Translations under genes and position numbers: made by a program | Notes under the pieces: generated by a model | What the model was told of the DNA's origin: nothing | The model's database searches: none | Seen by the model: the letters and a program-made list of their open reading frames with translations, nothing else | In this document: piece after piece, positions 8,229 to 31,000 of the stretch | Numbering within the stretch: the first letter of the stretch is position 1 | How the letters are laid out: each line of letters begins with the position of its first letter | Origin: Magnolia sinica | Taxonomy: Eukaryota; Streptophyta; Magnoliopsida; Magnoliales; Magnoliaceae | Direction of reading: 5' to 3' | DNA: 64,000 nt | NCBI RefSeq assembly: GCF_029962835.1 | Contig: NC_080584.1 | Coordinates: 75,668,862 to 75,732,861, forward strand

Positions 8229-9448
8229 ACTAACCTGCTGCCGAGGGGATTGCTCCTGGATTTGAAAGGAAAGTCACACCGTCATTTTAAAAGCCTCATT
8301 GACGCCACCGTCTGGAAGGGAAGCCGATTGCGTGGCATGCCACGCACCACGGAACTTAAGGTGCAACATCCTTAGATTTGCAAAGTAGCCACATCATAAA
8401 CCCTTAGACTTTTCAATTAGTAGGCCACCGATGGAAAGGCTGCAATTACCATACCGAAGAATATTCCAGAACCATTCCACCCAAGACTGGAAATAACGGA
8501 ATAGTGATCTGGATTGCCGAATCGATGTGCCCAGTACTTGACAGAGTTGCGAGAATCGGATTGTCTATGACCTCCGCGGACAGATATTCCACTGCTCCCG
8601 GTTGTATGGGGCCCACAGAGATGTCCATGAGAAATCCATTCCATCCATCTGTTTTTCAAGACCATAATAATACATGAATCTAAACATCAGGCAGATCGAA
8701 AAGTCATGTAGGTTATACCACACAAAACAGAAGTTTTGTATCAGAATGATATTTGTTCCTACAGTTTATCTGAGTGGTAATAACCTTATGAACGGTCTGG
8801 ATGGCAAATAAATCTCATGGTCAACTAGAACTTTTCAACGGTGGCCATTTCTGTTCCCACTGTTTCGTTTGGTGTGACCCACTTGAGTATTTAATCTCCT
8901 TGATTTTTATAAATATGTCCTATTGTTAATTTTCAAAAGAGATGGACGGAGTGGATTTGTCACGGACATCTTGTGAGCCCCAAAAAGCCCCATGCCCAGG
9001 TCACATGCAATCTGCTTCCAAACTGAGTACCTGTGTATCAGGTGTAAAGACTCGGTTCGTGTATCCTGTAATTCCTCTACACTCACTAGGGACGACTTCT
9101 GTTTTAAGTACCAGACGAGTCTGAGATAACTCGCTAGAGTCGACTCAGATTTTGTTGCGTCCGATCCGGTTAAAGAGAACGAGTAAAACCCCTGACTCAG
9201 GTGAATTGTGCCCTTTCAGCCCCAACTCGCATCTGGGTTGGACGAGTCAATTCAAGTAGCCGAGTCTTTTGATCATGTTCCAGGCTGGCTATAGTAAGTG
9301 GTGATAAGCTTTCAGTATTCACCACTGAACATTTGGCTGTATGGTTGGGTAATCACGCCCATTGGAGTTTTCTTCCTTAACTCATTGCCCATAGGCGCCA
9401 TTCAATCACCTTCCATTGCTGGCGAATTGCAAGCTTGTTACTCATTCG
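8229..9448 (+). promoter_or_regulatory. Upstream region of kinase gene A, with fold-back element
   Basis: The region is shared with the upstream region of gene B (27190-28098) and so probably includes the promoter. A fold-back element at about 8570-8995 (GGGCCCACAGAGATGTCC... to ...GGACATCTTGTGAGCCCC) is complete here. In block B it has lost its right part: the two copies rejoin at GTATCAGGTGTAA (9036 here, 27687 there). No convincing TATA box was picked out. The minus-strand 60-82-codon frames are shadows of the fold-back. Confidence 0.5.
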
Positions 9449-11517
9449 ATGATGATAAGAAAATCCGGCAAACTGTTTATTCTTCTCAGTTTCTTCATAT
9501 TCTACTGCCTCTGCATTCGATTTTCCCACGCGGTGGATACCATCACACAAGACCAACCGCTCCATGACGGGAACACCTTGATTTCTGCTGGTGAGGTTTT
9601 CGAGCTGGGCTTCTTCACCCCCGGCAAGTCAAAGAATCGTTACGTGGGAATATGGTACAAGAAAGTCAAGAACCGAACGGTTGTATGGGTTGCCAATAGG
9701 AAAAACCCAGTCTTGCATTCATCTGGTGTCCTTACAATCAACAGCACCAATGGAAATCTGATGATCTCGGATAAGAATGGAAGCAACTTCATGGTGACAA
9801 ATGATTCTGCCACCAATCAAACAACTGCTCAGCTCTTAGATTCCGGAAACCTCATACTGATAGAAGGGAATTCGACGAATCATGAAGGCCGGGTCATATG
9901 GCAAAGCTTTGATTATCCTACCGATACGTATCTCCCTGGCATGAAACTGGGAGTGAATAGAACGAGTAGGCGAAAATGGCTCCTTACTTCATGGACAAGT
10001 GAAGATGACCCTGCTCCCGGGAACTTCACTAATGGAATCGATTCCGATGGATTGGCTCAGCTTTTTACATGGAGAGGACGACAAAAATACTGGACTAGTG
10101 GCACTTGGAACGGGGAAATTTTCAGCCTTCTTCCTGAAATGAGAACATATCCTATCTTCAATTACAGCTACGTGTCGAATGAGGATGGGACATATTTTAT
10201 TTATTCACTTTATGATAAAACTACAATTTCAATATCGGTGATCGACGTGTCTGGGCAAATGAAGCAAATGACATGGCTGGAGAGCAGCCTGTCTTGGTAT
10301 CCGTTTTGGTCTCAACCAGGAGTGGCATGTGATTTTTATGCTGCTTGTGGGGCTTATGGTATCTGCGATGGGAGTACGTCCTTGTGCAAGTGCTTGCCCG
10401 GGTTTGAGCCTTACTCTGGACGAGATTGGCATGCAGGTGATAAATCAAACCGGTGCATGAGGCGAATACAACTGAAGTGTGGGAATGAAGATGGGTTCTC
10501 GCGGTTGAATGGCATGATATTTTCTGCTCACGCTCGAGTTCTTAAGAATTCAAGTCTCAGCCTAGAAGAATGCGAATCTGAGTGCAGGAGAAACTGTTCT
10601 TGTATTGCTTATGCTTCTGCTCATGACAACAGAACCGGATGTTCCTTTTGGGATGGAGAGTTAATGAATCTTCGTAAGATCTCCGTCAACGTCCCTGATC
10701 TTTATGTTCGTCTTGCTGCTTCAGAGCTCGATCCACCTACTGACTCTCGACAACAAGCCACTAGAAATGGTAAATTTTAATGATTTATCTACATTTTATT
10801 TTTCCCAATTGCGGTTATCTTTTTTGATTGTGTATTTGTTTGTTTTCTTATGTTAGTAGAAGTTGGAAACTGCAAGTAATGTCAGTCAGACTAATTCTAT
10901 ATGTATGTTATGCATGTGCTGTGAGCCGCAAAGGCTTTCAAATGTGCATTCTGTTTTCTACTAATCAATACAAGTTCAGACACAGGAAAGAAGAAGAGGC
11001 AGCAAGTAATCATTGCAGTAACAATCACTATTTCCATCCTTTTATTTGGCTCAGTTACGTGTTATTTCTGTAGGCGAAATCTCAAGCCTAAAGGTAAAAA
11101 TTCTCTTAACCATGAACTGGGCAATGGACATTTTGATTCATGTAGTGAAGTGAGCCTTTTGCTGACAACCAGGGAATCAGGAAAGAAGCCAAGAAGTATT
11201 GTTGCATGAGTTACGAAATAATGGGTCAGATGACAGGGAATCAATCAATGCAAACATGCTCAGAGAAGGCAGGAGGAAGGGTCTGGAGTTGCCCTTATTC
11301 AGTTTTGCAACTGTAGTAGCTGCTACAGATAACTTCTCTCCAACAAATAAGCTTGGGCAAGGTGGTTTCGGCCCTGTTTATAAGGTAACCATTAATTTCA
11401 TTGGTAACTAGTCTAATTTATATAATAAGAAATTAACTTGTTTCTCTGTATATGGATTTGAAAAAAAAAAGGATTTTAATTATCAAGAAAATGCAACACA
11501 TGCATGATTCATGTTAT

Positions 11518-11597
<80 letters not shown>

Positions 11598-13842
11598 ATC
11601 CAGTCTCCAAGGGAACTCACAACTGCAACTGGCACATGGTTATGTTACCATGCAGAAACTCCTTTTGCTGAATAAATAAAAGAAACCCCAACGAACCCAA
11701 TTGGGAAACTACTACAGGCTGGGATCATGACCATGTGTTGGCGAATCTCAAGGAACAGAACTCTGTGTGGAAATTGAATAGCCCGGATGGCTGACTGTAA
11801 ACTTGAAAATCATCTAAAGAGAGTGAGAAAGAAATTGAATTTCAATGAAACCATATTTCACAAATACCATTTAAAATAGTATTCGTATTTCCTATTAAGT
11901 TTTTAACTCATACTCACTATGAAAATAATTCCAAGAAAGAAGAAAAATCTTAATCAAGCTCTTGAACTACAACTGTCATTTTAAAGGATGAACAATGCAC
12001 TTGACAGAAAATAATTCACCTTAGCTGATTCCCTCTCCAAAAGGTAGTGTAGAGGTAACAAACCTTCTCTCTTACCATCAATAACGTAATTAGTTCTCAA
12101 ATTTGCATGCCTGTCTCAACATATGATGTCTGTCACTATAGTACTGTTTCAAAAAGATTATATTGATTGCGAAACACCAATATACATAATAAGATGACGA
12201 TGTACGGCCAATGTCAATCTTCAGGGTATGCTGCACGAGGGACCAGAAATTGCAGTGAAAAGGCTTTCCAGAAGTTCTGGACAAGGTCTAGAAGAGTTCA
12301 AAAATGAGATTATACTTATTGCCAAACTACAACATATGAATCTTGTTAGGATCTTGGGATGCTGCATCGAAGGAGAAGAAAAGATACTACTCTACGAATA
12401 CATGCCCAACAAAAGTTTGGATTCCTTCCTCTTTGGTCCGTTACTCTTAACACTTGCAACTTAACACAAAAAGCATCATTTCTCAAGTTGCTCTCTCATC
12501 CACTGTACATGTGCCATACATGGACTCTTCTCAAACCATAACCTAAGCCCCATTCCGGATGGATCATGACTAAAAATTCATACTGATCAGATGATCTTAA
12601 TCATCAGATTCTGGACAAGATATTCACACTGTGATTAGTACGATTTCTTTTAACCGAAATCTATTAGTACGATTTTTGGGACATGCTGCATCCACAACTC
12701 ACACTATGATTACGATGATCTGGCTTAACAAGCTTCTCTGCCACGTGTATAGTGGATGAGATAACGCTACTTAAAAAATGGACTATTTTGAAGTCTTCTC
12801 CTTCAATACATTCATATCATTTATGTTGGTGGGATATTCACTACCGTGCACTAAAATATCTTCCTGTTTATATATTTGAATCTAAAAATGATGCAGATCC
12901 AACCAAAGGAAAGCTATTAGATTGGGGAAAACGTGTCCACATCATCAATGGAATTGCTCAAGGGCTTCTCTATCTTCACAAGTACTCCAGATTGAGAGTT
13001 ATTCACAGAGATCTTAAAGCCAGTAACATTCTCTTGGATGGTGAGATGAACCCCAAGATATCAGATTTTGGCATGGCGAGAATTTTCGGGCGAAATGAAT
13101 CAGAGGCAAATACAAATAGGGTTGTTGGAACTTAGTAAGTAAATTCACTCACAAGTACAAATCTACGTCTAACAACAAAAACATCTGTATATATACCCAT
13201 AATAAATATGCCCATCAGATTGTCTAACTTCAATTGAAATTTTGTTGAATGGTGAAATTCCAGTGGTTATATGTCTCCCGAGTATGCAATGGAGGGCCTT
13301 TTCTCAGAGAAATCTGATGTCTTTAGCTTCGGAGTCTTACTTCTAGAGATTGTCAGTGGCAAGAAGAACACCAGCTTTTATCATTCTGATAGGTCTCTAA
13401 ACCTTCTGGGATATGTGAGTAACCAGAACAAATCTACCATCTTGGTTTCATGTTTTGAAGCACCTTGTTTTTGTTTCCTTTTGGAATCCGACAATGACTT
13501 ACATCCATGGAAAATGTATTGTTTCAGGCATGGGAATTGTGGAAGGATGGTAGGGTCTCTGAGTTGATGGACCCGATGTTAGGTGATCCAACATCTTCCT
13601 GCTGCGACATTTTGAGATTCATCCAAATGGGACTCTTATGTGTGCAGGAAAGTGCGAAGGATAGACCCACCATGTCCGACGTTGTTTCGATGCTTAGTAA
13701 CGAAATGGCAACATTGGCGGCTAATCCGAAACAACCAGCATTCTTTCTAGGAAGAAGGGGTCTTGAGGAGAATTCATCTAAAAACAGAACAGAGAATTGT
13801 TCCAATAATGATTTAACTATTTCTGAGATAGAAGCTAGATAG
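9449..13842 (+). CDS. G-type lectin S-receptor-like Ser/Thr protein kinase (gene A)
   Basis: Seven exons: 9449-10769, 10980-11093, 11173-11384, 12225-12435, 12897-13134, 13264-13414, 13528-13842. All junctions are GT-AG and the phases fit, giving 853 residues, normal for the family. The ATG at 9449 is chosen because a signal peptide follows at once (basic RKSGK, then [17 protein letters not shown]). Exon 1 holds the bulb-type lectin domain, the S-locus glycoprotein domain, an EGF-like Cys cluster ([16 protein letters not shown]) and the PAN/apple domain ([10 protein letters not shown]). Exon 2 is the transmembrane helix ([17 protein letters not shown]) with a stop-transfer RR. Exons 3-7 are the kinase: [11 protein letters not shown] glycine loop, IAVKRLS lysine, HRDLKASN catalytic loop, [12 protein letters not shown] and a TISEIEAR tail. 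It is probably an active plasma-membrane receptor; the ligand is unknown. It could belong to the SD1 or a sister subfamily. Function is inferred from the family. Confidence 0.92.
11519..11594 (+). repeat. (CT)n microsatellite in intron 3 of gene A
   Basis: Thirty-eight uninterrupted CT units lie just after the exon 3 donor region. The same place in gene B (30160-30200) is T-rich with TTTTTC units rather than CT, so the expansion happened in copy A or was lost in B. It is a likely length-polymorphic marker that separates the two paralogues. Confidence 0.95.
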
Positions 13843-14356
13843 ACATTCCCACTTCAGAACAGAGTATGCCTCTTTTTCCAATCAACGGAAGTTTTAGTTG
13901 GTTGAAGTTCAAATAATTCTTACCATTTTATGTCAGTCAGATTAAATGATTATGTTGTATCCTCCCATATGAGACAATGTGTAGTATGGGTAAGATTGTG
14001 GGATTTATTCTCTAAACTACCATAAATAAGCTATTGTTTCTTCGAAGTATAGAGTTGAATGTGAGTAATTAAAAATTTTCTATTCATTGTTCTGAATTCA
14101 TTAGCAAACATTGATGGGAATCATCATCCCTTCAGAGCAAGTTTCTTATGGTGGCCCATATAACATATGGTATCAGACACATTCTGGCTCCTGGTACACC
14201 ACTTCAACCTTGATCCTGACACTCCTAACTGTTCTTCTTCCATTGCCAGCCGACGAAACCCAGCAATGCTGAAACCAATCTTTTAAGAAGTAAGAAGATG
14301 CGAGTGTATGAGTTCCTCACAATACTGACGAAAATGAGGTTGACTTAGAACTCAAG
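13843..14356 (+). other. 3' flank of gene A
   Basis: Shared with the 3' flank of gene B (37620-38230), including GTATCAGACACATTCTGGCTCC (14171 here, 38051 there). It presumably holds the 3' UTR; the AT-rich CTACCATAAATAAGC near 14019 could serve for polyadenylation, but I see no perfect AATAAA. Ends at the target duplication TCAAG (14352-14356) of the LTR element. Confidence 0.5.
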
Positions 14357-16435
14357 TGTTAAGGGTCAAATATTGCATATTAGACCCGGATTATTACCTG
14401 ATCTTATAAACATGATACTGTTTAACTGTATATTTTAATAATGTTTTTGGTTGCAAGGTGAATTTAGGAGCTTGATCTTAAAAGAGTACTAAAAGCCTAG
14501 ATTTAACACTCATAAATTACCAAGGCAAGGGACAGACTTCAAGGGATCGATATTGAAGAATTTACATATCAGAAATCCGAGAAGATCATGCCACTCATGT
14601 TAAATGGGCCTAAAAACCGTCCAGAATGCAAGATCATAGGGTTCCCACCATCCGTTCTGCTTAAAACTTCATATATGGCCTGCAGACCATAAATTAACCA
14701 TACACGTCAAATTTCATCTATTGGATCTTTGTGGAAGTGGCCCGACGGATAGATCAGCCCCTAAAATCCTGATTTGGGGCCCGCCTGGTATCTGGATATG
14801 CTTCAAATTCGATATCAACCCTTCAAATTATGTGAAAAAATGAATGGATGGAGCGGATTTATCAAAAACATCACTACAAATCCCACCTGTGTATTGCACG
14901 TGCATAGTGTGTACAAATACTTGCTGTGCATCGCAACCACCAGAGTCGGTTAGCGTCACGCTGACCAACAATTTTCAAAAAAAATCCCAGAGTCTCTATG
15001 TTGTCTGTCCATTTTTCAGTAGTGGGGCCCACCATCATGCATCTCGATGATCTGGACTGTCCATTCGATCCAGAGGGGGGCCTTGACCCTCGCCTAGCTG
15101 GTCTTTTGGCCCCATACGCATGTACACACATGGATCGTCAAAAAATGCAGGACGGACAGCGAGTTGATTTTAAACAGTGAACCGCACCAAAACTCGACCA
15201 AAATCACTCCTTTGTGACTGAAATTTCACCAAGAATCTAGTGAATGGGGTAATTTTCGTCGAAAACACTACTATGGGGTCCACCGAATATGTCAACGTAG
15301 GATTTTTCACAGGTAACGCACGTCTGAGAAAATCGGACGTTACAGGGAGTTATGGCCCACTGTTTGTGTTCGGATCTCCGATTTGAATCGTCCAACAGCT
15401 CGGAAAGGGGGTCTTTACCCCAACCATGGAGCCAAAATCAATTCTTGGGACATCTACCGGCCGAAAAGTCTTTCCAAATGCAAGTGGAGTTGCGTTTTTG
15501 CAGCTGCGCATGCATGTACTGCATAAGGAGGTCAATTCCGCAAGTTTGTGGCCGACCTAAGGACATCCTGCTGTTTCTATAAAAGGGAGAGAGAAAGAGA
15601 GCTTAAGCATCCAAGCTTAGACTTGTGGGGCAGCCGTGGAGGCAAATCTGGAAGCCAGTTTCCAAAAGTTCCTTTCTACTTTTTTTTCTTTGTTTATTTC
15701 TTTCCATTTCTAAGACTTTTGCATATTTATGATAGGCTAAACCTCTTAGCTAGGGCTAAGAGGTGAAGCTTGTAGCATGATTCAGATGCTTACTTGGTTT
15801 TGATTCATGTTTTGTTGAACTCCTTTGGATTTTAGTTTAATTATGAAGGTGTACTTCTAGTTTTTAATAGTTTGTTGTGACTTAAATTACAATGGATCTG
15901 CGATAGCTTTAAGGATGTTCTTTACATTATTGAGATTGTGAACTTAGTAAGACCTATTGTTCACCATCGTCCCATGGGCATGGTAGGGTGACGGAAACCT
16001 TTTTAACTTTCACAATTCTCTTATGATTGGTTGTCTCCTAGGCATGGTTAGGTGATGGGATCACTTCCAAATCTTCACCACTCTTATCTATTAATGATTA
16101 GATCCATGAGAAGTTCAGAGATCTGACAAATCTCTTCTTACCAATTGGATAGGATAGGATTCTAAATCTAGTTGTGTTCTTAAATTAAGCGTAGATCTCC
16201 CAGATCTCTACAAGTGGATCCTTGACACCCTAGTTTCCCTCCTTTGAATTTTACAATTTTTATTTAATTAAAATTCACAATTATTCTCTTAATTCTTCCT
16301 GATTTAGATAACATCTTCGCCTAGTTCTAGTTCAAGTTACTTTTAGATTATGTACAAGGTTCAGTCCCTGTGGATTCGACCTCGGTCTTACCAAGATTAT
16401 TACTACATCACAACCCTATACTTGGGGTGTGAACA
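14357..16435 (+). repeat. 5' LTR of the LARD-like element
   Basis: TG...CA ended, 2079 bp, matching 20007-22115 along its length. It contains a fold-back-like patch (GTGGGGCCCACCATCATGCA near 15022) and a likely TATA-type segment CTATAAAAGGGAGAG (15575-15589), a good candidate for the element's own promoter. Confidence 0.8.
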
Positions 16436-19400
16436 AGTTTTAGGCATCGTTGTCGGGGACTGATGGTTGCGTTTTTCTGAAATTAACTGGTTTTAAAATT
16501 AAGTTAAGATTAGGATTTTTCTATTTTTCTATTTTTAGGATTAGGGTTTTATTTTCTATTTTTAGAATTTTTTTAAAAAAAATTATTCTAGGATTTCTTT
16601 TAATTTTAAAAACTAACATTACTTTCTATTTTTAGGATTTAGAAACTTTCCTTTTTAGGAACTAGTTTATTTTTAGAAACTTTTTGATTTTAAGTTTAGA
16701 TTTTCTATTTTAGAAACTTTCTAATTCTAGGTCTTCTTTTTAGAAACTAACTCATCTTTCTAATTTTTTTAAAACTTTCTGACTCTAAGATTTCTATTTT
16801 TAAAAACTAATTTCTTTTGTTTTCTTATACAGGACCTTAACATAGAACTCCAATCTGGTAACTTCCTTCTAACTTCTCCTCTACTTACTTTCCATATTGC
16901 TGTAAGATTTTTCTTTTATTTTCTTTTTCTTTTAGGATTAGATTCAGAGTTAGGGTTTCACCATGAAAGAGTGGGTACGTCATTATGCTGAGATGGATAA
17001 GAGATATTAGGGAGGAATGTATAATGATTACGATGTAATTCAACATATATCTTAAGATTTTTCTCAAACCACATTGAGAACCGACTCGAATATTATACTC
17101 CATTGGTTAAGAAGTCCTTACGCGTTCATAATTATCAGAATAAGGACTATTATCAACCATCATATTCTCCCACATATGATTCGTATGATTATAACCAGTG
17201 GAAGCATCAAAATTGGGAAGATGAACCAACAATATGTTATAATGATTATTCTCTTAGATACCCTGCCATTGAGATCCAACCAGAAACGATCCAAGATAAT
17301 TCATTTCAGTGTAACATGGTCTGTCTTGCGAAAATTAGAAAAATGTTGGAAGCACTTAATTCAAGTGATAATTATCTTGGATCCTCTACCTTTAAAATTC
17401 AACCAGAAAAAATCCAAGAGAATTCAATCCAAAATTTCTTCCAAACTCTAGAGCTCAGCCAACAAAATACACTCTAAAGACTGTAAGAACTTAGAAAAGA
17501 TATTCAATAGTGGAGTTCACATGAGATGATTGTGAAGAACTCTGGAATTTGGAATGAGGAGTTGGATTCCGTTAATGAGCATACGGTTCAATTTTTCGAT
17601 GAGTCAATCTCGATGACAGTTCAAAGGAATGATCAAGAGACGTGGGTGTCTTTCAAATATAATGATAGTGACAAATTTCACTCACATGACACACATGGTT
17701 TCAATGATGAGGAAGAAGTTAGTTTATTCGAATCTCAGCCCAATTTAGAAAGAGAATGTGAGAAAAGTGATCCCATCCCAAGTGTGCATTGCACGGAATT
17801 AGACGATGATGTGTATTGGGATGACGATCATGAATGCTCAACTCAAATTCCCCTGGAATCAATCTCAAGTATGATACAGGTCAGTCATCAAGAAGTACAT
17901 GAAGTGATCAGTCATCGGGATCTACTCCACTCATCTAACATGCCTGATTTAAAAGTAAAGGATAAGCCCCTTACAATCGACCCTTCTAACTCTTATGAGA
18001 CATGTTTGAACCACTTCCCTAAATTGAATGATGATATGATTCAGGAGAGGGACGAGTCACTTGATATGACTTTGGAATTTGAAACCACCCAGTTGAGGCC
18101 ATCATCTAAGCTGTACACTTTTAATGGTTTAATGCCTCTTCTAAGTAATATCAATGAACATAATCCTCATATCAATACTTTGTCTACTGACCCTCAATCT
18201 GTCTGTGCAGGGCTGGAGCAAGAGAGCATACTTCCATCTACTTTTAAAGCCGATAGTCCTTGAACATCTTATTACAGATTTTAATGTGGAGAATAAGTCA
18301 CTCTCAGCTGAATTTCTCAACTCTTTAGATGATTGCTAGGCACACTTTGCATATTCAAACAATCCCATGATAAAAAAAATAGTGGATGCCTTACAAAACA
18401 ATACCTCGATGGTTGTCATGAACCGAGGAAACCCTTACTCTGAAATCCTTCCCTTCATAGATCTTGAGTGCTTACCATTACAGGAGGAGGAGCTAAAAAT
18501 TGAACCGGAGTCTGAAACTTCGGAATGTGTCAAGACTACATCACTTTCTGTAAATTTTTCTTAATTTTATTTATGTGTGATTCACCATGGAGTACTAACA
18601 TTGACACTTTTTTTTGTCACAGGTGAATCATATATCCTGTGGATACCTCAGGCGATTCAATGACAATTTTTTAATGAGGTCTATAGATTTCTCTGGAATT
18701 CCATGCTCCAAGGCATCCAAGCCTATTACAGAAAGGGCTTTTGGATGATCTTGTTGAAAAACCTACTGAGAAATTTATCAAGATATTGGCCGGTAGAGGA
18801 ACCTTGCGGCATGACTGAGTAGCTTTTCCCTTACTTTTATAGGACTAAGATAGTTTGTTTTATGTCGTTTTATGATAGTCGGCTTTATGTCATTAGGTTA
18901 GTTTGCTTTCTAAGTTGTTTTAAGATAGGTTGCTTTCGTTGGTTTCACTCTTGTGCTGACCTGTTCTCACGCTGATATCTCTTTCAAAAGGCCGTCCAAT
19001 TTCCTCGTCAGGTACTATCTTTCCATCACTTTTTTTTTTACTTTCGGTGTCTCATGTAAATTGCATGCTTATATCTTTTACATTGAGGATAATGTAGATT
19101 TTAGGTTGGGGATGGGAGATTGGATTACCTAATCAATATTTTCTTGGGCTTGAGCAAATATTGTGAATTTTTTTAAAAAAAATTCTGAATTTTTTGTGAA
19201 TTTGAAGTGATTTTGACGGCCATCTTTGATTTAGACGTATAAGGTACGTAATGTTGGTAATTTATGAGTCTTGGATTTAGTTATCTTTAGATTTCACAGT
19301 TAAGTTCGAATTGCTAATCCATGATTCGAAGTTTTAAACATTGATTGAATCATGATTTCAGTTTAATATTAAATTGTTAACCTGGTAGTCACTAGACATG

Positions 19401-20006
19401 GAAGGAGCCAACCTGGAGAATTTGTCCATCATATTCAAAGAAAAAAAATAATACCTAGCTAAAAAGCAGTTGTCTTCAGAAAGGGTTGGGCGAATGATTT
19501 TCACCATGGGTTTGCTCCCTATAGGTGAGGGCTCATTTTCTCCCCCCCTTAGCTTTACCTTTAAAAGTTTGACATAGCGTGAAAGCCATCAATGTAAAAA
19601 TCAAAAGCTGAAATAACGAAAAGTTGAAATGTAAGGCAAGTTTTGGTTTAAGTTATGATTGTCCTGAATGTTCTTGTGATTATCAATGTTATCATGAAAA
19701 TAAAGGATTTATGAAAATAAAGAATTGAACCTTTGATTGTGATGAGTTTAGGTTTCACTATACACCTATGGAACTCAATGTTTGCAATTTTTCTAATCGA
19801 TGAATTAATACTTTGAACTTGACTATAAATTTTATTGTGTGCTTGAATCCAGGAGAAAGTAATGCCCAACATTAATGAATCTTAGAATTCTATTGACTGG
19901 TTTGTTGTTCAAAAAAATTACTCGAGTTCATAGAAATTATCCTGTAGTTCTCAACTTATTTTTCGCATGCTTTGCTCGATACAAGTGAAATGCTGGTTGA
20001 GGATTG
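16436..20006 (+). other. Internal region of the LARD-like element, with two gag-less open frames
   Basis: After a T-rich leader (16480-16920) come open frames at 17103-17477 (124 codons, rich in Tyr, Asn and Gln, with IQPE repeated) and 17526-18263 (245 codons, acidic, rich in Asp, Glu and Ser). I do not recognise a gag zinc knuckle, protease, reverse transcriptase or integrase in them. They may be accessory or vestigial frames of the retroelement family. They are not supported as host genes because they lie between matched LTRs. Confidence 0.55.
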
Positions 20007-22115
20007 TGTTGAGGGTCAAATATTGCATATTAGACCCTGATTATTACCTAATCTTATGAACATGATACTGTTTAACGGCATGTTTTAATCACGTTTTTTG
20101 TTGCAAGGTGAATTTAGGAGCTTGATCTTAAAAGAGTACTAAAAGCCTAAATTTAACCCTCATAAATTACCAAGGTAAGGGACAGACTCCACGAGACTAA
20201 GATCGAAGAATTTACACACTAGAGATCCGAGAAGATCACACCACTCACGTTAAACGAGCCTAAAAACCGTCTAGAATGCAAGATCATAGGGTTCTCATCA
20301 TCTATTCGGCTCAAAACTTCATATATGACCTGAGGACCATAAATTAATCGTACATGTCAAATTTTAACCATTGGATCCTTATGAAATTAGTCTAACGGAT
20401 AGATCAGCCCCTAAAATCCTGATTTGGGGCTCGCCTGGTATCTGGATATGCTTCAAATTCGGTATCAACCCTTTAAATTAGGCAAAAAAATGAATGGATG
20501 GAACGGATTTATCAAAAACATCACTACAGACCCCACCTGTGCATTGCATGTGCACAATGTGTACAAACACTCGTTGTACGCCGCAACCACCGGAGTTTAT
20601 CAGTGTTACGCTGACCGACAGTCTCTAAAAAAATCCTAGTGTCTCTACGCTATCCATTTGTTTTTCAGTAGTGGGGCCCACCATCATGCATCTCGATGAT
20701 CTGGACCGTCCATTCGATCCAAAGGGTGGGTTTGACCCTTACCTAGGTGGCCTTTTGGCCCCATACGCATGTACACATGTGAATCGCCAGAAAACGCAAG
20801 ATAGATGATGAGTTGATTTTATACAGTGGACCGCACCAAAACTCGACCAAAACTACTCATTTTCAACTGAAATTTTGCTAGGAATCCAATGAACGGGGTG
20901 GATTTCATCAAAAACACTACTATGGGGCTTACCGAACACGTCAGCACAGGATTTTTCATAAGTAACGCATGTCCGGGAAAACCAGACGTTGCAGGGAGTT
21001 ATGGCCCATCGTTTGTGTTCGGATCTCCGATTTGAACCATCCAACAACTTGGGAAGGAGGTCTTTACCCCAACCATGGAGCCAAAATCAATTCTTAGGAT
21101 GTCTACCAGTCGAGAAGTCTTTCCAAATGCAAGTGGAGTTGGCATTTTCGCGGTTGCGCATGCATGTACTGCATAAGGAGGTCAGTTCTGCAAGTTTATG
21201 GCCGACCTAAGGACCTCCTGCTGTTTCTATAAAAGGGAGAGAGAAAGAGAGCTTAAGCAACCAAGCTTGGACGTGTGGGGCAACCATGGAGGCAAATCTG
21301 GAAGCCAGTTTCTAGAAGTTCCTTTCTTTTTTTTTCTTTGCTTATTTCTTTCCATTTCTGAGATTTTTGCATGTTTATGATACGTTAAACCTTTTAGCTA
21401 GGGTTAAGAGGTGAAGCTTGTAGCGTGATTGGGATGCTTGCTTGGTTTTGATTCATGTTTTGTTGAACTCCTTTGGATTTTAGTTTAATTATGAAGGTAT
21501 ACTTCTAGTTTTTAATGGTTTGTTGTGACTTAAATTACAATGGATCTGCGATAGCTTTAAGTATGTTCTTTCCATTATTGAGATTATGAAATTAGTAAGA
21601 CTTGTTGTTCACCATCGTCCCATGGGCATGGTAGGGTGACGGAATCCTTCCTAACTTTCACAATTCTCTTATGATTGGCAGTGGGATTAGTAAATTGCTA
21701 TTGTTTGCCATAGTCTTCTGGGCATGGTTAGGTGACAGGATCACTTCCAAATCTTCACCACTCTTATTCATTGATGATTAGATTTATGAGAAGTTCAGAT
21801 ATCTGACAAATCTCTTCTTACCAATTGGATAAGATAGGACTCTAAATCCAGTTGTGTTCTTGAATCAAGCATAGATCTCCCTGATCTCTACAAGTGGATC
21901 CTTGGCACCCTAGTTTCCCTTCTTTGAATTTTACAATTTTTATTTAATTAAAATTCATAATTTTTCTCTTAATTCTTCCTAATTTAGATCACATCTTTGC
22001 CTAGTTTTAGTTCAAGTTACTTTTATATTATGTACAAGGTTCAGTCCCTTTGAATTCAACCTCGGTCTTACGAAGATTATTACTACATCACAACCCTATA
22101 CTTGGGGTGTGAACA
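20007..22115 (+). repeat. 3' LTR of the LARD-like element
   Basis: 2109 bp, partner of 14357-16435. The same CTATAAAAGGGAGAG promoter-like segment is present (21227-21241). Ends GTGAACA directly before the target duplication TCAAG. Confidence 0.8.
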
Positions 22116-22155
22116 TCAAGAAGCCCAAAGCACAGATAACAGTTTGGATGGGGAT

Positions 22156-23543
22156 TGATGCAGGGATGAATGTGATGAGGTCAATCACCGTCTTCCCCAA
22201 GGATAACTACTCCAAATCCACGGAGCTTCTCTGGACTCCTCACAGAGACTTCTAAAATCTATGAGGAAAAAATAAGATAAATAGAAATAAATTCCATAAA
22301 ATTCGTAATTTGATTGATGAATAATAAAAACGAATTTACAACTCTTTAAATAGGGATATCAAGCCTTGGAAGAAATTTCATAATTAAACTATAAGTAAAA
22401 CTCCCTAAAATTCGTAACTTACTATAAATAGTAAATTTACTATTTATGGTAAGGGTCCTATGTGGCTTAACCACGTTATTCTTCTAATTTTTATAAGCAC
22501 TTTTCATGTTGGACACAACTCCTAAAGCCCAACGGATGAAGAGTTATAATAAAACCAAAACTTACTAAAAATAGTAAAAACAGAAATAAATATGAAATTC
22601 GACCATCGATCTAATGGAATGTTGCAAATTCGGTGTGGGCAACCCAACAATTGGCTAAAGTAGCTTGTCTTACCCCAAAATCATATATGGTACGTCGAGT
22701 AACTCATTCCAGTTTGCGAGATATGTCTGTTTTAAGGTTCTGACGGTCTTGATGACTGCTGCCTTCTATTGGGCCTTCTTTGGTCCATCTTGAACATGAA
22801 AGTCGACTTGCTCTACATCAGGGATGCCCCCCCTTGAAGCTTCCCTAATGTTCTTTGGGCCTTCTTGTTTTCTATTTGTTATGTGACGCAGGGATGAACG
22901 TGATGAGGTCGATCACCATCTTCCTCAAGGAAAACTGCTTCAAATCCACAGAGCTTCTCTGGACTCCTCACAGACTTCTTGAATCCACGAGGAAAGATAG
23001 AAACTAGAAATAATTCTAAAAATAAATTTGTCGATAATTGATAGATGAAATAAACGATTATACAACCCTTTAAATAGGGATACCAAGCCTTGTAAGAAGT
23101 TTCAGAATTAAACTACAACTTAAACTTAATAAAATTCGTAACTTACTATTTATTGTAAGTGTCCTATGTGGCTTAACCACATTATTATCCTAAATTTTCT
23201 AAACACTTTTTATATTGGACACAACTCCTAAAGCCCCAACGAATGAAAAGTTATGATCAAACCAAAACTTAATAAAATTAGTAAAAATGGAAATAAACAT
23301 GGAATTCGACCATCGATCTGATGAAATCTCGCAAATTCGGCGTCGGTAACCGAGAAAAGCCGGGTTGGTTAGCTAAAGTAGCTCGTCCTACCTCAAAATC
23401 ATATATGGCATGTCGAGTAACTCATTCCGGTTTGTAAGATATGCATGTTTTAAGGTTCTAACGGTATTGATGACTTTTACCTCTGATCTGGCCTTCTCTG
23501 GTCCATCTTGGTCATGAAAGTGTCTGCAACTTGCTCTACATCA
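22156..23543 (-). mobile_element. Pair of ~660-bp LTR-like direct repeats with almost no interior
   Basis: Units 22156-22820 and 22884-23543 are diverged direct repeats starting TGA[TC]GCAGGGATGAA and ending TTGCTCTACATCA (TG...CA). They are separated by only 63 bp. Read on the minus strand, the base run before the 22820 end is AAGGGGGGGCATCCC, a polypurine-tract-like sequence. I therefore read them as the two LTRs of a minus-strand element whose interior has been almost wholly lost. No clean target duplication is seen. Block B lacks both units (TTGGATGGGGATGATCACC near 38257). Confidence 0.6.
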
Positions 23544-24057
23544 TTATGTCATCTAATCTACTGATAAGATGACACCACCTAAATGAACTAACACTCCCCA
23601 AAGAAAAGTATTGCAAAAACTCAGGTGGGCCATACCACTTGCTTGCCTGGGAAAACTCAGGTGGGTCATGTCATCCAATCCACAAGGACATGGATTTGCA
23701 GGAACTTTTTTAGACCGGAAGCTAACTAGGGGGCCCACTATTATGCTTGTGAGAAATCTACTATGTTTATCTTTTTTCTTCGAATATATTATGCTAGGAC
23801 ATGGGCCAAAAAATGAAGCAGATCCAAAACACAAGTGGCTTGCATGATAGGAAATGGTGAGAATCGAGCATCTAGGCATGAAACATTCTTGGGGCCACAG
23901 ATGTTTTGGATCAGGCTAATATTTTGTGTTTTCAATTTATCGCAGTAGGAATTACCATATGAATGGTATGGATGGAATATAAACATCATGGTGGGCCTCG
24001 AGGAGATTTTGACAGTTGTCGTGCAACTCATGGTGATCAGAACCAGTCATCTGTTGA
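23544..24057. other. Right flank of block A, fold-back fragment
   Basis: Fold-back-family sequence (ACACAAGTGG...GGATCAGGCTAATATTTTTG-like) shared with 38330-38566 in block B. No gene. The 108-codon minus-strand frame runs through this repeat and is rejected. Confidence 0.5.
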
Positions 24058-24290
24058 TTGATGTCTTAAATCTGTGAATCAAAAGGTCTTCGATGCCATC
24101 GAGCAGACTTAAATGCCATCAAAGTCCTATTCGATGCCATTGCAAAAATCTGAAATTTATCATGTTTGTTGCTGGCACTTTAGGAGTTATGCTGAATACC
24201 ATCGAAAGAGGTTTGATGCCATCAAAGGTTATTCGATGACATTGACGCTCAAGTGGACTGCACCGCAATGACTCTTGCATTTAATGCTTT
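24052..24290 (+). mobile_element. Truncated Copia-like LTR with palindromic modules
   Basis: Starts TGTTGATTGATGTCTTAAATC, closely matching the start of the Copia LTR at 30659 (TGTTGTCAGACTGATGTCTTAAATC). It then carries about six worn copies of a TCGATGCCATCGA palindrome where the Copia LTR has CTCGACCGGTCGAG. It sits exactly where homology between blocks A and B stops. No right end was identified, so it is a truncated or solo LTR of a sister family. Fossil, broken. Confidence 0.5.
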
Positions 24291-25249
24291 GTGCATTTAT
24301 TGTGACCCAAGCTCATAATTTTGTGGTATGCTCCGGCATTGGATCTGCTTCAGTTTTGGGCTCACTCTTTAAAGTGATCCGAAATTTTTGATGGACGCCC
24401 GGATAAACATACACATCAAGGAGGACCCCACGGGAGCTATGGTTGGACCGGTTATTGTCCTGGGGTCGAACTCAATCCGCTTCCAACTTGCGCTGGCAGA
24501 AGAAATGTCTAAGAATCAAATGACCGGATATTCTAACTGGCGCGTTTTTATCTTCTGGGTCAGGTATGATAGAGCCCACAATATATAAGCTCTGCATTTA
24601 TTCCTATAATGTCTTTTCCGGCAACCTCTTCCAAGTAATTTCTCTAAAAGGAATCATGCACACACCTTTTTGTTTTTTAATGGTTCTTATCAAATTTGAT
24701 TTTTAACCCATTTATTCAGAATTATATTTATTGGATGATCCTGACCGCTTATATACAACCAGTTGGTAATTTAAAATGTATATTTCTTTTACATTTGCAG
24801 CCCACTTGATCATTGGATGGATTAGGGAAAACTATCTTCAGAGCCAATGATTTGATCAATTTTTAAGGTGGGCTTAGTTGACACCAGGCCCAAACATTAT
24901 TTTAAGCTTGGGCTTAAGACGGCTGTGCTGGTCCCATAGATTATAGCTGGCAGTTACAGCTAGGACAGATCTGTTATGGTGATTAGATTAGTGGACGTGC
25001 AGTGTCGTAGATGGAGAAGATATGAATGAATGTGCAAGACAATGAACTGAAAATCATTGAATCTAATCCATAGAAAAATAACATCAGTGAATAGAAGATG
25101 TGATCAGTCAACTTACACCATTGAAAATTTCTACTTCTTGAAAGATGAAAGAGAAAAAAAAAAAAATTTAATTTTGATACTTTGATAGTCTGATGGATAT
25201 GCACCCACTTATAAATTAAAATTGCATGTGGCATGCATATAATTATATC
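24291..25249. other. Intergenic spacer between duplication blocks
   Basis: No gene seen. Holds a fold-back half (GGACCCCACGGGAGC near 24421) and an A-rich run (25152-25167). The 83-codon minus-strand frame is T/F-rich low-complexity sequence. Confidence 0.4.
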
Positions 25250-25610
25250 GAGTCATGCTCCCCTGCGCACCTACGCACGTGCGCACCATTGCACACGTGC
25301 CATGAGTATCTAATCTGAACGGTCCATGTGATGCAGAATCCCATAAAACCCCATGTGACAAATTTTCACCCCAATCTAATATTCTGGTAGGCCATAGCAA
25401 AGAGAAATGCAAATCAAGGGAGGAAACTGTTTTCATGTTTCATGGCCCATAGAAGTTTTAGATCAAAGTAAAACTTGGGCCCTGGGGGTTTCAGGAGGTG
25501 TTGCTTCACATGAACGGTTCAGATTTCGGATCCACATCACGTATGATGGGTTCTCAAAAAAGTTTGTACCTAGTACGTACGAACTGGTTCGCAGGTGAGC
25601 GTTTCCCTAA
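25250..25610. repeat. Fold-back MITE (GCGCACCTACGCACG type)
   Basis: The left part (CTACGCACGTGCGCACC... TCTGAACGGTCCATGTGATG, 25270-25335) is inverted against the right part (CACATGAACGGTTCAGATTTCGGATCC... ACGTACGAACTGG, 25507-25590). The middle carries GGCCATAG / CATGGCCCATAG arms. No open frame of note; it is a non-autonomous element of unknown superfamily. Confidence 0.5.
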
Positions 25611-26242
25611 TTATATCAAAGCATCGGGTACCCACTTATATGTAGGGTTGTCAATTAGGCTTGGAATGGAGTATGTGGCATAGGGGATGGGTTGGGCCTT
25701 AAACTTAACAAAACAAGGTCCTGTCCTGCATGTAGAATCAACAATCCTCTCCTCATTCCAATTTCTAATTTCCAATTTCATTATCAAAGTTGGGCGGATG
25801 TGAGAAATTATTTGAAAGAAGTTGCAAAAAAGATAATATAAAAATCAATCTTCTTAGTGGACACCATGATGCATGACTTGGTAGAGGAAAATGCATAGTT
25901 AGAATCTAGTAATATGATTGTTAGACTTTTGTTCATTTGGAGAAGGCCATTTTAGGTGCACCCCGGCCTTACCCAAGACAGTGCAGCCATTATTGTGTGG
26001 CCCACCATGTTGTATTTATTCTATATCCATGCCGTCCATACATTTTATTTGGTCATTTTAGTGCATGATCTAAAAAATGAAGCAGATTGAAATCTCAGGT
26101 GGACGGTACCATAGGAAACAATGCTTATAATTGAAAACTCCATTAAAAACCTCCTAAGACTGCGATATTTTCCATAATGCTTATTTGCTATCCAACATGT
26201 TCATAAAGTCACACACACCTGGATGAAGGGAAAAACAAATAT
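25611..26242. other. Spacer and left half of a fold-back element
   Basis: No gene. From about 25975 the fold-back family begins (GTGGCCCACCATGTTGTATT) and runs on into block B; block A keeps only the part after 26243. The block junction therefore lies inside this fold-back. Confidence 0.5.
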
Positions 26243-26585
26243 TACCTTGGTTCATAACTTTCACAAAAAATTTTTAATAGTCAATCATCACTGTTTCCCA
26301 TAGTATGACCCACCCGACATTTTAATCTGCTTCAGAAAATCATTATATAAAATGATCCAAAAAAATGGATGGACAGTATATAGATATAATAAATATATCA
26401 ACGTCGGCGGCGTAATGGCACCACCGTTTTGGTTGAGGCCCAGGCGGTACCTAACCTGCTCCGGAGAGGTATGCTCTTGGATTTCAAATGTAGCATTGTC
26501 ATATTTTTAAAGCCTTGTTGACGCCACTGTCTGGAAGGGAAGCTGAATGCGTCGCAGGCTACGCACCACGGAACTTGGGGTGCAT

Positions 26586-27153
26586 CGAAGTCATATGTGG
26601 GACCCACAATGATGTATAATGTCATATTCTAATGATTTATTGATTTTTCTTTGTTATTTAAGAGAAATAACAAAAGAAAAATGAGTAAGATGGAACGCTC
26701 TAGTGGACCACACCACATAGCAGTGGTGATTAAATCCTTCCATTGAAAACTTATGACGTTGTGTTAAGCAGATATTTGTTTTTTTCCTTTCAATTAGGTC
26801 TGTGTAATCTTATGAAGATATTAGATGGAAAATAAATAACATGGCAGGCCTAGAATCGTTTCAATGGTGGGCATCATTGTCCTACTGCTTTCTGTAATGT
26901 AGTCCAGTTGATCTTTAGATCTGTCATATTTTTTGGGTCATGCCCTGAAATGATCTCTTCAAATGGATGGACGGCGTAGATACATTTGGAGAGATGATTT
27001 TAAGGCACGACCCAGAAACTGATTTTGTTTCGTATGCTCTCGTCAGCCTTCAGGAAATTCACGACCGTCTCAATCCTGACAAATGGGACTATGATTTGGA
27101 AATTCAGGATGTTGCTGTTTCGCTTCCCACCTCTGGCTTTTCACTTTAGATCT
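26586..27153. other. Block-B-only insert: fold-back piece plus coding-like fragment
   Basis: Absent from block A, where GGAACTTAAGGTGCA (8350) runs into AACATCC. It contains a fold-back piece (GTGGGACCCACAATGATGTA at 26598 to GGATGGACGGCGTAGATACA at 26964-26983). Next to it is a 125-bp stretch (27022-27149) translating to a protein-like sequence with ALVSLQEIHDRLNPDKWDYD and DVAVSLP. I do not recognise the donor gene. It may be a captured exon piece. Confidence 0.4.
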
Positions 27154-28098
27154 AAGTCCTTAGATTTTTCACTTTAAATCTTTTCCTAACCATCCATTCA
27201 TAGGCCACCGGTGGAAAGGCTGTAATTACCATACCAAGGAATATTCCAGAACTAGTCCACCCAACATAATGGTGATCTGGATTGCCAAATCGATGGGCCC
27301 ACTTGATAGAGTTTCGGGAATCGGATATCTTGTGATCTCCACGCACAGATATTCCAGTGCTCCGGGTTGTGTGGGTCCACGGAGATGTCCTGGAGAAATC
27401 CATTCCATCCATCTGTTTTTCAAGACCATAATAGTACATGAATCTAAACATCAGGCTGATCCAAAACTCATGTAGGCCATACCACACAAAACAGTTGGGA
27501 TTGAATGCCTGGTGTGACGGAAGATTTGTAACAGGATGATATTTGTGCCTACAGTTTATCTGAGTGGTAATAACCTTATGAAGGGTCTGGATGGCATATA
27601 AACATCATGGCCGACTACAGGAACTTTTCAACGGTGGGCATTTCTGAACCCACTCTTTCGTTTGGTGTGACCCACTTGAGTATTTTGTATCAGGTGTAAC
27701 GACTCGGTTCGTGTATCCTGTAATTCCTCTTCACTCACCAGTGACGACTTCTGTTTTAAGTATCAGATGAGTCTGAGATAACTCGCTAGAGTCGACTCAC
27801 ATTTTGTTGCGTCCGATCCGGTTAAAGAGGACGAGTAAAACCTCTGACTCAGGTGAATTGTGCCCATTCAGCCCCAACTCGCGTCTGGGTTGGACGAGTT
27901 AATTCTAGCCGAGTGTTTTGATCATGTTCCAGACTGGCTATAGAAGTGGTCATAATCTTTCAGTATTCACCACTGAACATTTGGCTGTATATGGTTGGGT
28001 AATCAGGCCCATTGGAGTTTTCTTCCTTAACTCATCGGCCATAGGCGCCAGTCAATCACCTTCCATTGCTGGCGAATTGCAAGCTTGTTACTCATTTG
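27154..28098 (+). promoter_or_regulatory. Upstream region of kinase gene B
   Basis: Matches 8400-9448 upstream of gene A, except that about 150 bp of the fold-back (A 8885-9037) are missing. The shared 27700-28098 part (AACGACTCGGTTCGTGTATCC onward) is the best candidate for the core promoter and 5' UTR. No certain TATA box. Confidence 0.5.
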
Positions 28099-31000
28099 AT
28101 GATGGAAAGAAAATCCGGCAAACTGTTTATTCTTCTCAGTTTCTTCATATTCTACTGCCTCTGCATTCGATTTTCCTACGCGATGGATACCATCACTCAA
28201 GACCAACCCCTCCCTGACGGGAAGACCGTGATTTCTGCTGGTGAGGTTTTCGAGATGGGCTTCTTCAGCCCCGGCAAGTCGAAGAATCGTTACGTGGGAA
28301 TATGGTACAAGAGAGTCACGAAACAAAGGGTTGTATGGGTTGCCAATAGGAAAAATCCAGTCTCGCATTCATCTGCTGTCCTTACAATCAAAAACAACAA
28401 TGGGAATCTGATGATCTTGGATGAGCTTGGAGGCAACTTCATGGTGACATCTGCTTCTGCTACCAATCAAACAAGTGCTCGGCTCTTGGAATCTGGAAAC
28501 CTCATCCTGATAGAAGGGAATTCGACGAATGATGAAGGCCGGGTCATATGGCAAAGCTTCGATTATCCTACTGACACATATCTCCCTGGCATGAAACTGG
28601 GAGTGAATAGAAAGAGTGGGCGAAAATGGTTCCTTGCTTCATGGACAAGTGAAGATGACCCTGCTCCCGGGAACTTCACTTATGGAATGGATTCCGATGG
28701 ATTGGCTCAGTTTTCTATATGGAGAGAACGACAAAAAAACTGGACTAGTGGCACTTGGAACGGGGAGATTTTCAGCCTTATTCCTGTAATGAGAACAAAT
28801 TATTTATTAAATTACAGCTACGTATCGAATGAGGATGGGACATATTTTATTTATTCACTGTATTATAAAACTATAATTTCAATAATGGTGATGGACGTGT
28901 CTGGGCAAATCAAGCTATTGATATGGGAGGAGAAGAGCCAATCTTGGAATACGTATTGGTCTCAACCAAGAGCGGCATGTGAGTTTTATGCTCCTTGTGG
29001 GGCTTATGGTATCTGCGAAGGGACGGTGCTCTCTTTCTGCAGGTGCTTGCACGGGTTTGAGCCTTACTCTCGAGGAGATTGGGATGCAGGTGATAAATCA
29101 AAGGGGTGCGTGAGGCGAATAGAACTGAAGTGTGGGAATCAAGATGGGTTCTTGCCGTTGAGTGGCATGATGTTTTCTGGTAACCCTCGAGTTCTAAAGA
29201 ATTCAAGTCTCAGCCTAGAATACTGCGAAGTTGAGTGCAGGAGAAACTGCTCTTGTATTGCTTATGCTTCTGCTCATGACAACAGAACCGGATGTGCCTT
29301 TTGGGATGGAGAGTTGATGAATCTTTGTAAGATCGCCAGCAACATCTCCGCCAACGTCCCTGATCTTTATGTTCGTCTTGATGCTTCAGAGCTCGATCAA
29401 CCTACTGACTCTCGACAACAAGTCACTAGAAATAGTAAATTTTAATGATTTATCTTCATTTTATTTTCCCCAATCGTGGTTATCTTTTTTAATTGTGTAT
29501 TGTTTGTTTCTTATGTTGGTAGAAGTAGGAAACTGCAAGTCTATCTCTATGTGTGTTATGCATGTGCTGTGAGCCGCAAAGACTTTCAAATGTGCATTCT
29601 GTTTTCTACTAATCAATACAAGTTCAGACACAGGAAAGAAGAAGAGGCAGCAAGTAATCATTGCAGTAACAATCACTATTCCCATCCTCTTATTGGGCTC
29701 AGTTACGTGTTATTTCTGTAGGCGAAATCACACGCCTAAAGGTAAAAATTCTCTTAACCACGAACTGGGCAATGGACATTTTGATTCATGAAGTGAAGTG
29801 AGCCTTTTGCTGACAACCAGGGAATCAGGAAAGAAGCCAAGAAGTATTGTTGCATGAGTCACGAAATAATGGGTTAGATGACAGGGAATCAATCAATGCA
29901 AACATGCTCAGCGAGGGCAGGAGGAAGGGTCTGGAGTTGCCCTTATTCAGTTTTGCAACTGTAGTAGCTGCTACAGATAACTTCTCTCCAACAAATAAGC
30001 TTGGGCAGGGTGGTTTCGGCCCTGTTTATAAGGTAACCATTAATTTCATTGATAACTAGTCTAATTTATATAATAAGAAATGAACTTGTTTCTCTACATA
30101 TGGATTTGAAAAAAAAAAGGATTTTAATTATCAAGAAAATGCAACACATGATTTATGTTAGGCTCTTTTTCTTTTTCTTTTTTCTCTTTTTTTTTTTTTC
30201 ATTCAGTCTCCAAGGGAACTCACAACTGCAACTGGCACATGGTTATGTTACCATGCAGAAACTCCTATTGCTGAATAAATAAAAGAAACCCCAACGAACC
30301 CAATTGGGAACTACTACAGGCTGGGATCATGACCATGTGTTGGCGAATCTCAAGGAACTGAACTCAGTGTGGAAATTGAATAGTCCGGATGGCTGACTAT
30401 AAACTTGAAAATCATCTAAAGAGAGCGAGAAAGAGATTGAATTTTAATGAAACCATATTTCACAAATACCATTTAAAATAGTATTCGTTTTTCCTATTAA
30501 GTTTTTAACTCATACTCACTATGAAAATAATTCCAAGAAAGAAGCAAAATCCTAATCAAGCTCTTGAACGACAACTGTCGTTTGAAAGGATGAACAATGC
30601 ACTCGACAGAAAATAATTCACCCTAGCTGATTCCCTCTCCAAAAGGTAGTGTAGAGGTTGTTGTCAGACTGATGTCTTAAATCTAACACCACGCTACTCG
30701 ACCGGTCGAGCGGCTGGCTCGACTGGTCAAGGGTTCACTCGACCGGTCAAGGCCCTCTCAACTCAAAGTCCGGCGAGCTACCTTTTTTGGTGTCCGGGAT
30801 GCTCGACTAGTCGAGGGTCAGGCTTGACTGGTCGAGCGGGTCCTTCAACCAGTCGAAGCCTTGGCACGACTAGTCAAGAGTTATGCAGTTGATGCGCGGA
30901 CTGCATAAATTTGAGGCGGTTTCGGACTATTCCAAGAAGGTGCGTAAGTGGAGTTGGCTAAACTATAAATAGGGGTCCCTAGGGATATTCTAAGGTATTC

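Follow-up and report, generated by a model that had tools for sequence, protein, structure and literature searches.

Probable segment exchange and diversifying selection on part of the ectodomain in a tandem array of predicted S-domain receptor-like kinase genes of Magnolia sinica

The available part of PMC4065267 describes the Brassicaceae receptor kinase SRK as being under positive selection, with exchange between SRK and SLG, and the OAK cluster of Arabidopsis thaliana is presented in the accessible text of PMC3136440 as a conversion-rich array of receptor-like kinase (RLK) genes. According to the sections available of PMC12382012, tandem RLK orthogroups tend to be the largest contributors to positive selection in A. 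thaliana, and the accessible sections of PMC4049390 report selected codons in lineage-specific expanded plant genes and none in single-copy ones. A contrasting case is rice Pi-d2, a single-copy B-lectin/PAN kinase for which the available portion of PMC9486079 gives an overall Ka/Ks of ~0.1. Here we describe a stretch of 64,000 nucleotides from Magnolia sinica (NCBI RefSeq assembly GCF_029962835.1, contig NC_080584.1, positions 75,668,862 to 75,732,861 of the forward strand), hereafter called the window, which contains two genes, A and B, that belong to a large tandem cluster and are predicted to encode plant G-type lectin (S-domain, SD1/SRK-like) RLKs. The best explanation as a whole, which we regard as likely, is array-wide exchange together with diversifying selection on codons 201-360 of the ectodomain, with a constrained kinase.

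G-type lectin (S-domain) RLKs have seven exons, with the ectodomain encoded in exon 1 and a DUF3403 domain at the C terminus. This exon layout was found in both A (9449-13842, 851-amino acid product) and B (28099-37543, 833 amino acids), based on splice borders read from the sequence, and the two genes are 18.65 kb apart in the same orientation, with 95-99% identity over exons 2-5. The exon-1 coordinates proposed in an initial sequence-only reading of the window were correct, and both exons are open (Table 1); exon 1 of B ends in A where that of gene A ends in G, and the GT donor is retained. Matches to B_lectin, S_locus_glycop and PAN_2 (residues 77-182, 215-322 and 344-407 of A) exceeded the Pfam cut-offs in both genes. 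The stretch between S_locus_glycop and PAN_2 is presumably EGF-like; the Pfam search matched no EGF family in either ectodomain to confirm this label. By eye, a predicted signal peptide was recognized in exon 1 of A and a hydrophobic, putatively transmembrane, stretch in exon 2 of both genes. The kinases of A and B matched PF07714 and PF00069, and contain HRDLKASN and DFG, which we take to be the catalytic motifs. Pfam matched the DUF3403 tail in A and not in B, because B stops early, at codon 830 in A numbering. Over the A-aligned codons, N-glycosylation sequons number 12 in A and 8 in B, and B has one additional cysteine, at codon 409.

A genome search with exon 1 of gene A identified at least 18 near-complete copies in C12:74.98-76.05 Mb (~1.07 Mb), one of which begins at query base 163 and one of which is split in two pieces, as well as fragments and more distant relatives; copy counts from this search are lower bounds, and copies are named after their position in kb. 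Exon-1 identity to A is 97% for c75546, 95% for c75480 and 90% for B, the best full-length match of B being 91%. Exon 1 is open in 9 of the 18 copies (A, B, c75480, c75170, c75964, c75883, c75571, c75243 and c74977), that of c75480 having a 39-bp in-frame deletion, and roughly half of the copies have lesions in exon 1. The open status of c74977 and of the c75964/c75883 copies requires an early donor. An in-frame stop near codon 434 in these copies was considered as a lesion and rejected, as a GT a few codons upstream, apparently in the same phase, suggests an earlier splice donor. In c76044, exon 1 has a 102-bp deletion and one inserted base that breaks the frame in its last few codons, and the kinase is damaged, with a frame gap and without a kinase acceptor. 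Similarity of this copy to B stops ~75 bp into intron 1. The kinase match starts 11.4 kb downstream of the exon-1 start (2.8 kb in A), so that a large insertion lies between exon 1 and the kinase. In copies besides A and B, lesions were looked for in exon 1 and in kinase exons 4-7, and the nine copies with an open exon 1 are also open in exons 4-7.

Selection was assessed with a codon-model likelihood script written for this analysis, whose log likelihood (lnL) for M0, the model that was cross-checked, equals that of IQ-TREE, and site posteriors are naive empirical Bayes. Three sets were used over codons 1-430: a first set of nine copies (A, B, c75480, c75170, c75964, c75883, c75571, c75243 and the damaged c76044, without c74977), a ten-copy set that adds c74977, and a set of nine cleanly open copies, with c74977 and without c76044. 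Neutral simulations, leave-outs, the multi-base filter and M8 posteriors were run on the first set. Trees were also fitted by segment along exon 1, and for the 18 copies four trees instead of one gave a far better fit, improving the M0 lnL from -6489.6 to -6160.8, with ~99 extra branch lengths. In the first set, the likelihood ratio test (LRT) statistic for M2a over M1a was 50.3 when a single tree was used, and 31.6 and 35.7 with four and eight segment trees, respectively; that for M8 over M8a, with four, was 31.5. The M2a statistic was 31.4 (four trees) and 34.1 (eight trees) in the ten-copy set, 28.9 (four trees) in the cleanly open set, and 75.0, 57.6 and 46.6 for all 18 copies with stops masked. 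None of 40 neutral M1a simulations, generated with eight trees and fitted with four, attained 31.6, the maximum being 8.18. The statistic ranged from 22.4 to 32.7 over seven leave-out sets, was 29.4 for six non-redundant copies, 27.7 under a model with double and triple changes (first set), and 27.8 with double changes in the ten-copy set. Given the segment trees and the simulations, the site class with a replacement-to-silent rate ratio (dN/dS, omega) above 1 is robust to recombination, with a caveat concerning multi-base codons that is discussed below.

In the open exon-1 copies, codons 201-360, which comprise the S-locus-glycoprotein part and the sequence that follows it, gain replacement changes faster than silent ones: omega was 2.18 (p 0.00027) in the first set, 1.96 (p 0.0006) in the ten-copy set and 1.94 (p 0.0012) in the cleanly open set. 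Because the borders of this segment came from viewing A and B, the test was redone without these two genes, which gave 2.15 (p 0.0012), 1.80 (p 0.005) and 1.83 (p 0.008), respectively. Omega and significance thus drop somewhat in the ten-copy and cleanly open sets compared to the first. Omega for codons 1-200 was 0.60, 0.62 and 0.63 in the three sets, the constraint at 0.62-0.63 having p values of 0.004 and 0.01, and codons 361-430 gave 0.75 in the first and 0.91 in the ten-copy set, with a small class above 1 (M2a LRT 13.2 and 14.9). The kinase of 11 copies showed an omega of 0.25-0.26, with an M2a LRT of 0 and no class above 1. Across the family, the codon models therefore support diversifying selection in one portion of the ectodomain alongside a conserved kinase, and this result is robust to segment trees, leave-outs and a multi-base model. 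The proposal that the ectodomain diversifies while the kinase is conserved is supported at this level for codons 201-360 and the kinase, but neither for exon 1 of A versus B nor for the whole extracellular part.

To place the candidate sites on an SRK-type ectodomain, SRK8 numbering was tied to A by alignment, in which the SRK8 residues named in the available part of PMC7530648 agreed with the expected letters on visual inspection. As hypervariable intervals we used A 194-214, 264-299 and 320-333, which is our own reading of position numbers in that part of the paper. In the first set, posterior omega was higher within these intervals (1.43 versus 1.10, p 0.024), which contain 15 of the 41 sites with P>0.5 (7.2 expected, p 0.002) and 3 of the 8 with P>0.9 (p 0.15); the ten-copy set gave 17 of 49 (8.7 expected, p 0.002) and 3 of 9 (p 0.20). 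Within codons 201-360, 18 of 32 sites in the first set were in the intervals (12.8 expected, p 0.03). This enrichment weakly suggests a binding surface in common with SRK.

As outlined above, exchange is the other component of the proposed explanation. In a scan for the nearest paralogue of B in 200-bp windows, B was nearest to A's group upstream of exon 1 (from 27199 on), to c75170 at ~28199-28598 (94.0-95.5% versus 87.0-91.0% for A), again to A's group at 28499-28798, and to c76012 or its group at 28899-29298 (94.0-97.5% versus 85.3-90.5% for A). Exons 2-5 were mostly nearest A's group, with part of intron 3 nearest c75975, and after ~36847 no copy was close. When 28899-29298 was searched against the genome, three copies matched at 95-96% over the full length, c76044 at 95% over 288 bases, and A at 88%, ranking 14th of the 18 cluster places with B itself counted. 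None of 200 permutations attained the observed value in the segment test of B between A and c75176 (28874-29316), nor in that of the break in the B kinase (36847 onward). The trees show the same pattern. Over codons 267-400, B forms a clade with c76044 and the c75176 clade (c75176, c75313, c75975 and c76012; support 99/99) and A is placed elsewhere (100/100); in exons 4-5, B falls inside A's group (100/100), and in exons 6-7, A's group is united (97/98) without B, which has a long branch. In the tree of exon 1 as a whole, A clusters with c75480 and c75546 (100/100), and B joins c76044 (86/89) and the c75176 group (81/79). If A is forced to pair with B over codons 267-400, the fit worsens by 104.9 log units. 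By these comparisons B is a mosaic, with an exon-1 stretch that groups with broken copies and exons 4-5 that group with A.

Gene A also changes neighbours. Among 108 informative sites in 8600-11500, those resembling c75480 make up 43 of 52 to the left of a switch at ~10072 and 6 of 56 to its right, where 50 of 56 resemble c75546, and none of 1000 permutations attained the observed value in a single-break test. This test was done on the aligned part, and segment tests that reached into non-aligning introns (c75546 versus c76012; c76044) were set aside. A, B and other copies thus carry segments that group with different neighbours. Separately, at codons ~272-292 of c75480 (A-aligned 10266-10323), 19 informative sites in 58 bp place A with c75546 against c75480; a genome-wide search did not find a donor of this patch in c75480, the nearest other copy found being 83% identical.

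B, which is open-framed through the kinase, carries the 28899-29298 patch, and all of the closest relatives of this patch now have lesions, which affect exon 1 in four of them and both the exon-1 end and the kinase in c76044. The idea that the broken copies serve as a store of recognition surfaces, from which the array would diversify its receptors by copying pieces of ectodomain onto conserved kinases, is doubtful.

The sequence-only reading had relied on A and B alone, and on a 360-bp sample of exon 1 (10081-10440 in A). This sample indeed contains 46 differences in 121 codons, but six of these are silent instead of about four (40 replacement, Nei-Gojobori counts, NG86), so that dN is 0.159 and dS 0.076. 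Exon 1 as a whole has 103 replacement and 22 silent differences by NG86 (dN 0.109, dS 0.076, omega 1.43, z 1.66). A threefold excess of replacement over neutral change was not recovered, NG86 giving 2.1 for the sample and 1.43 for exon 1, and pairwise codon likelihood, with 1.37 for exon 1 (p 0.20) and 1.74 for the sample (p 0.22), did not reject an omega of 1 for this pair. The point estimate for exon 1 thus exceeds 1, but an omega of 1 is not rejected. The silent and intron divergence of 4-5% that had been assumed applies to only part of the gene; the exon-1 dS is 7.6%. Non-coding divergence between A and B amounts to 8.8% in the 5' flank, 8.0% in intron 1, 2.5% in intron 2, 4.2% in intron 4, 18% in intron 5, 8.0% in intron 6 and 15% in the 3' flank, and intron 3 shows 3.6-4.6% to the left and 7.7% to the right of a long terminal repeat (LTR) element inserted in B. 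Since this divergence is so uneven (2.5% to 18%), a single neutral figure of 4-5% is unusable. Along exon 1, the NG86 omega between A and B was 0.77 for codons 29-200 in the lectin half, 0.66 for the B-lectin domain, and 2.83 (z 3.2) for codons 201-360; pairwise codon likelihood gave 2.69 (p 0.02) for codons 200-360, with borders picked after looking. The kinase is conserved between the two genes as had been proposed, with 7 replacement and 12 silent differences in exons 4-6 and a pairwise likelihood omega of 0.14 (p 9e-5; NG86 0.16), and the tail differs, exon 7 having an NG86 omega of 0.36 with a dS of 0.31.

Could B have simply taken part of its ectodomain from older paralogues, the A/B difference arising without positive selection? 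The B tract groups with other copies and spans about half of the 360-bp sample, which straddles its edge, and A versus B alone rejects an omega of 1 neither for exon 1 nor for the sample. The sequence-only reading had itself named conversion of exon 1 from a third paralogue as a finding that would refute it, and the nearest relatives of 28899-29298 agree with this, but only for part of exon 1. However, import would lift silent and replacement differences alike, whereas A and B have an omega of 2.57 (p 0.047) over codons 267-400, and the family signal survives eight segment trees, neutral simulations with recombination, and the removal of A and B. We therefore consider neutral mosaicism unlikely as the full account.

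Several results weigh against selection on codons 201-360 and against the exchange described here. When B and A's clade were left out, omega for these codons was 1.74 (p 0.037), 1.58 (p 0.05) and 1.46 (p 0.14) in the first, ten-copy and cleanly open sets, with M2a LRT values of 22.7, 21.9 and 12.2. The Pfam borders of S_locus_glycop alone gave 1.60 (p 0.059) in the first and 1.54 (p 0.063) in the ten-copy set, and for B_lectin omega was 0.57 (p 0.017), 0.68 (p 0.09) and 0.68 (p 0.11) in the three sets. Dropping the 77 of 430 codons with differences of at least two bases between any two copies reduced the LRT in the first set to 0, with an omega of 0.76; by construction, this filter discards the fastest sites, whatever the cause. 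The 12 positions aligned to SP11 contacts of SRK8 were not enriched in candidate sites (p 0.45 in the first and 0.36 in the ten-copy set). Holding B with A's whole group over codons 267-400 costs 22.7 log units and is not rejected at 0.05 (approximately unbiased test, p 0.066). Three copies (C12:75243950, 75571580 and 75883931) are near-identical, with 99.3-99.6% identity in exon 1 and a spacing of ~0.31-0.33 Mb, and may reflect a recent block duplication of the array, or an assembly duplication; c75170 and c75307 are likewise near-identical. Finally, omega over the whole of exon 1 was 1.03-1.04 with four segment trees, which is not different from 1, and therefore constraint may have loosened over part of the exon. 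If so, the ectodomain of a decaying tandem family would drift nearly neutrally while the kinase is kept, and the exon-1 lesions in about half of the copies fit this. Yet relaxed constraint by itself cannot account for an omega of ~2 in codons 201-360 (p ~0.001 or less for each of three sets), and the adjoining codons 1-200 are constrained, which makes this account rather improbable. A recent tandem duplication that produced A and B, each now specialising on its own ligand, is hardly credible: their spacing, orientation and the identity of exons 2-5 would fit, but the exon-1 and exon 6-7 trees contradict it, the nearest exon-1 copies of A being c75546 and c75480 and B falling outside A's group in exons 6-7, and a stop codon has cost B its DUF3403 tail.

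We therefore favour exchange combined with diversifying selection. Unequal exchange and conversion would reassort ectodomain pieces among copies whose kinases stay equivalent, and selection would favour new surfaces in codons 201-360, with kinase output unchanged, possibly because these surfaces bind a variable partner, either microbial or a peptide as in SRK. Both processes seem needed, since imported DNA alone cannot give a dN above dS. A and B may recognise different ligands and have a common signalling output, but their contrast would be one sample of an array-wide process and not the divergence of a fresh duplicate. Because both genes are mosaics inside a large array, the pair is a poor test, and this cautions against a dN/dS read from a single tandem pair. 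Within one receptor, the array shows a sharp contrast: codons 201-360 are replacement-driven, whereas the first half of the ectodomain and the kinase are both under constraint. Codons 201-360 are the likely specificity surface, with concrete sites to test.

The LTR element in intron 3 of B (Table 1) is absent from A, whose intron 3 has an empty insertion site. Its two LTRs differ at 66 of 592 sites, which is above the divergence of the A/B flanks, and 59 of the 66 differences are transitions; transversions number 7 of 592 sites in the LTRs versus 17 of 740 in the flanks, so by this measure the LTRs are closer. Dating by this element was considered and rejected: the higher LTR divergence at first suggests conversion after the insertion, but as the differences are mostly transitions and the LTRs have fewer transversions than the flanks, the insert is no evidence for conversion. 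Between A and B, 14356-16332 and 20006-22012 form a direct repeat pair ~5.65 kb apart with 82-93% identity in blocks, which may be the two LTRs of a second element, and an open reading frame inside it (17511-18260) had no Pfam match. A minisatellite with a 49-bp period is located at 2500-3282.

Table 1. Features of the window, with positions counted from its first nucleotide.
Feature	Position	Strand	Basis
Gene A exon 1	9449-10769	+	open frame, GT donor
Gene A exons 2-7	10986-11093, 11173-11384, 12225-12435, 12897-13134, 13264-13414, 13528-13842	+	AG/GT borders; kinase and DUF3403 tail
Gene A codons 201-360, family-wide replacement excess	10049-10528	+	codon models
Gene A tract siding with c75546 (upstream stretch sides with c75480)	10074-11475	+	single-break test on informative sites
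Gene B exon 1	28099-29434	+	open frame
Gene B exons 2-7	29634-29741, 29821-30032, 36014-36224, 36678-36915, 37033-37183, 37298-37543	+	AG/GT borders
Gene B exon-1 tract nearest broken copies c75176/c75313/c75975/c76012	28899-29298	+	scan, segment test, genome search, tract tree
Gene B 3' end, no longer A-like (end of exon 5 through exon 7 and aligned part past the stop)	36847-37609	+	segment tests, trees
Copia-type LTR element in gene B intron 3	30659-35840	+	LTR pair, junctions, 5-bp target repeat GAGGT; copia gag and reverse transcriptase matches

A literature search found no report tied to this cluster, which carries little weight, and the described systems resemble it to different degrees. 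The closest is SRK: gene A matches SRK8 (6kyw_A, E 1e-89) and SRK9 (5gyy_A, E 5e-82) over nearly the whole ectodomain, and the candidate sites are mildly enriched in stretches aligned to its hypervariable regions. The site class above 1 has an omega of 3.1-3.7 here (four segment trees), compared to 2.9-4.1 in SRK-like alleles in the available part of PMC4065267. However, SRK is a single multi-allelic locus to which a pollen ligand gene is linked, whereas the Magnolia genes are many tandem paralogues in one assembly, and of the 31 SP11-contact residues of SRK8 counted in the accessible text of PMC7530648, the twelve that can be named here are not enriched. The OAK cluster is similar in that codons in part of the ectodomain are suggested to be under positive selection and cytoplasmic domains were broadly equivalent in swaps, but its ectodomain is malectin-like, it was tested with transgenes while the present array is known from its sequence only, and a whole-protein dN/dS test gave no evidence of selection there (PMC3136440, available part). 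SRK entries also appear in a table of high replacement/silent ratios among A. thaliana kinases, in the sections available of PMC12382012, although that inventory concerns variation across accessions and not among paralogues of one array. Considering the reports on SRK, OAK, A. thaliana RLKs and expanded genes, the pattern of this cluster is therefore of a known type: birth-and-death, exchange and diversifying selection have been described before in S-domain receptor kinases, and the Magnolia array is a new instance.

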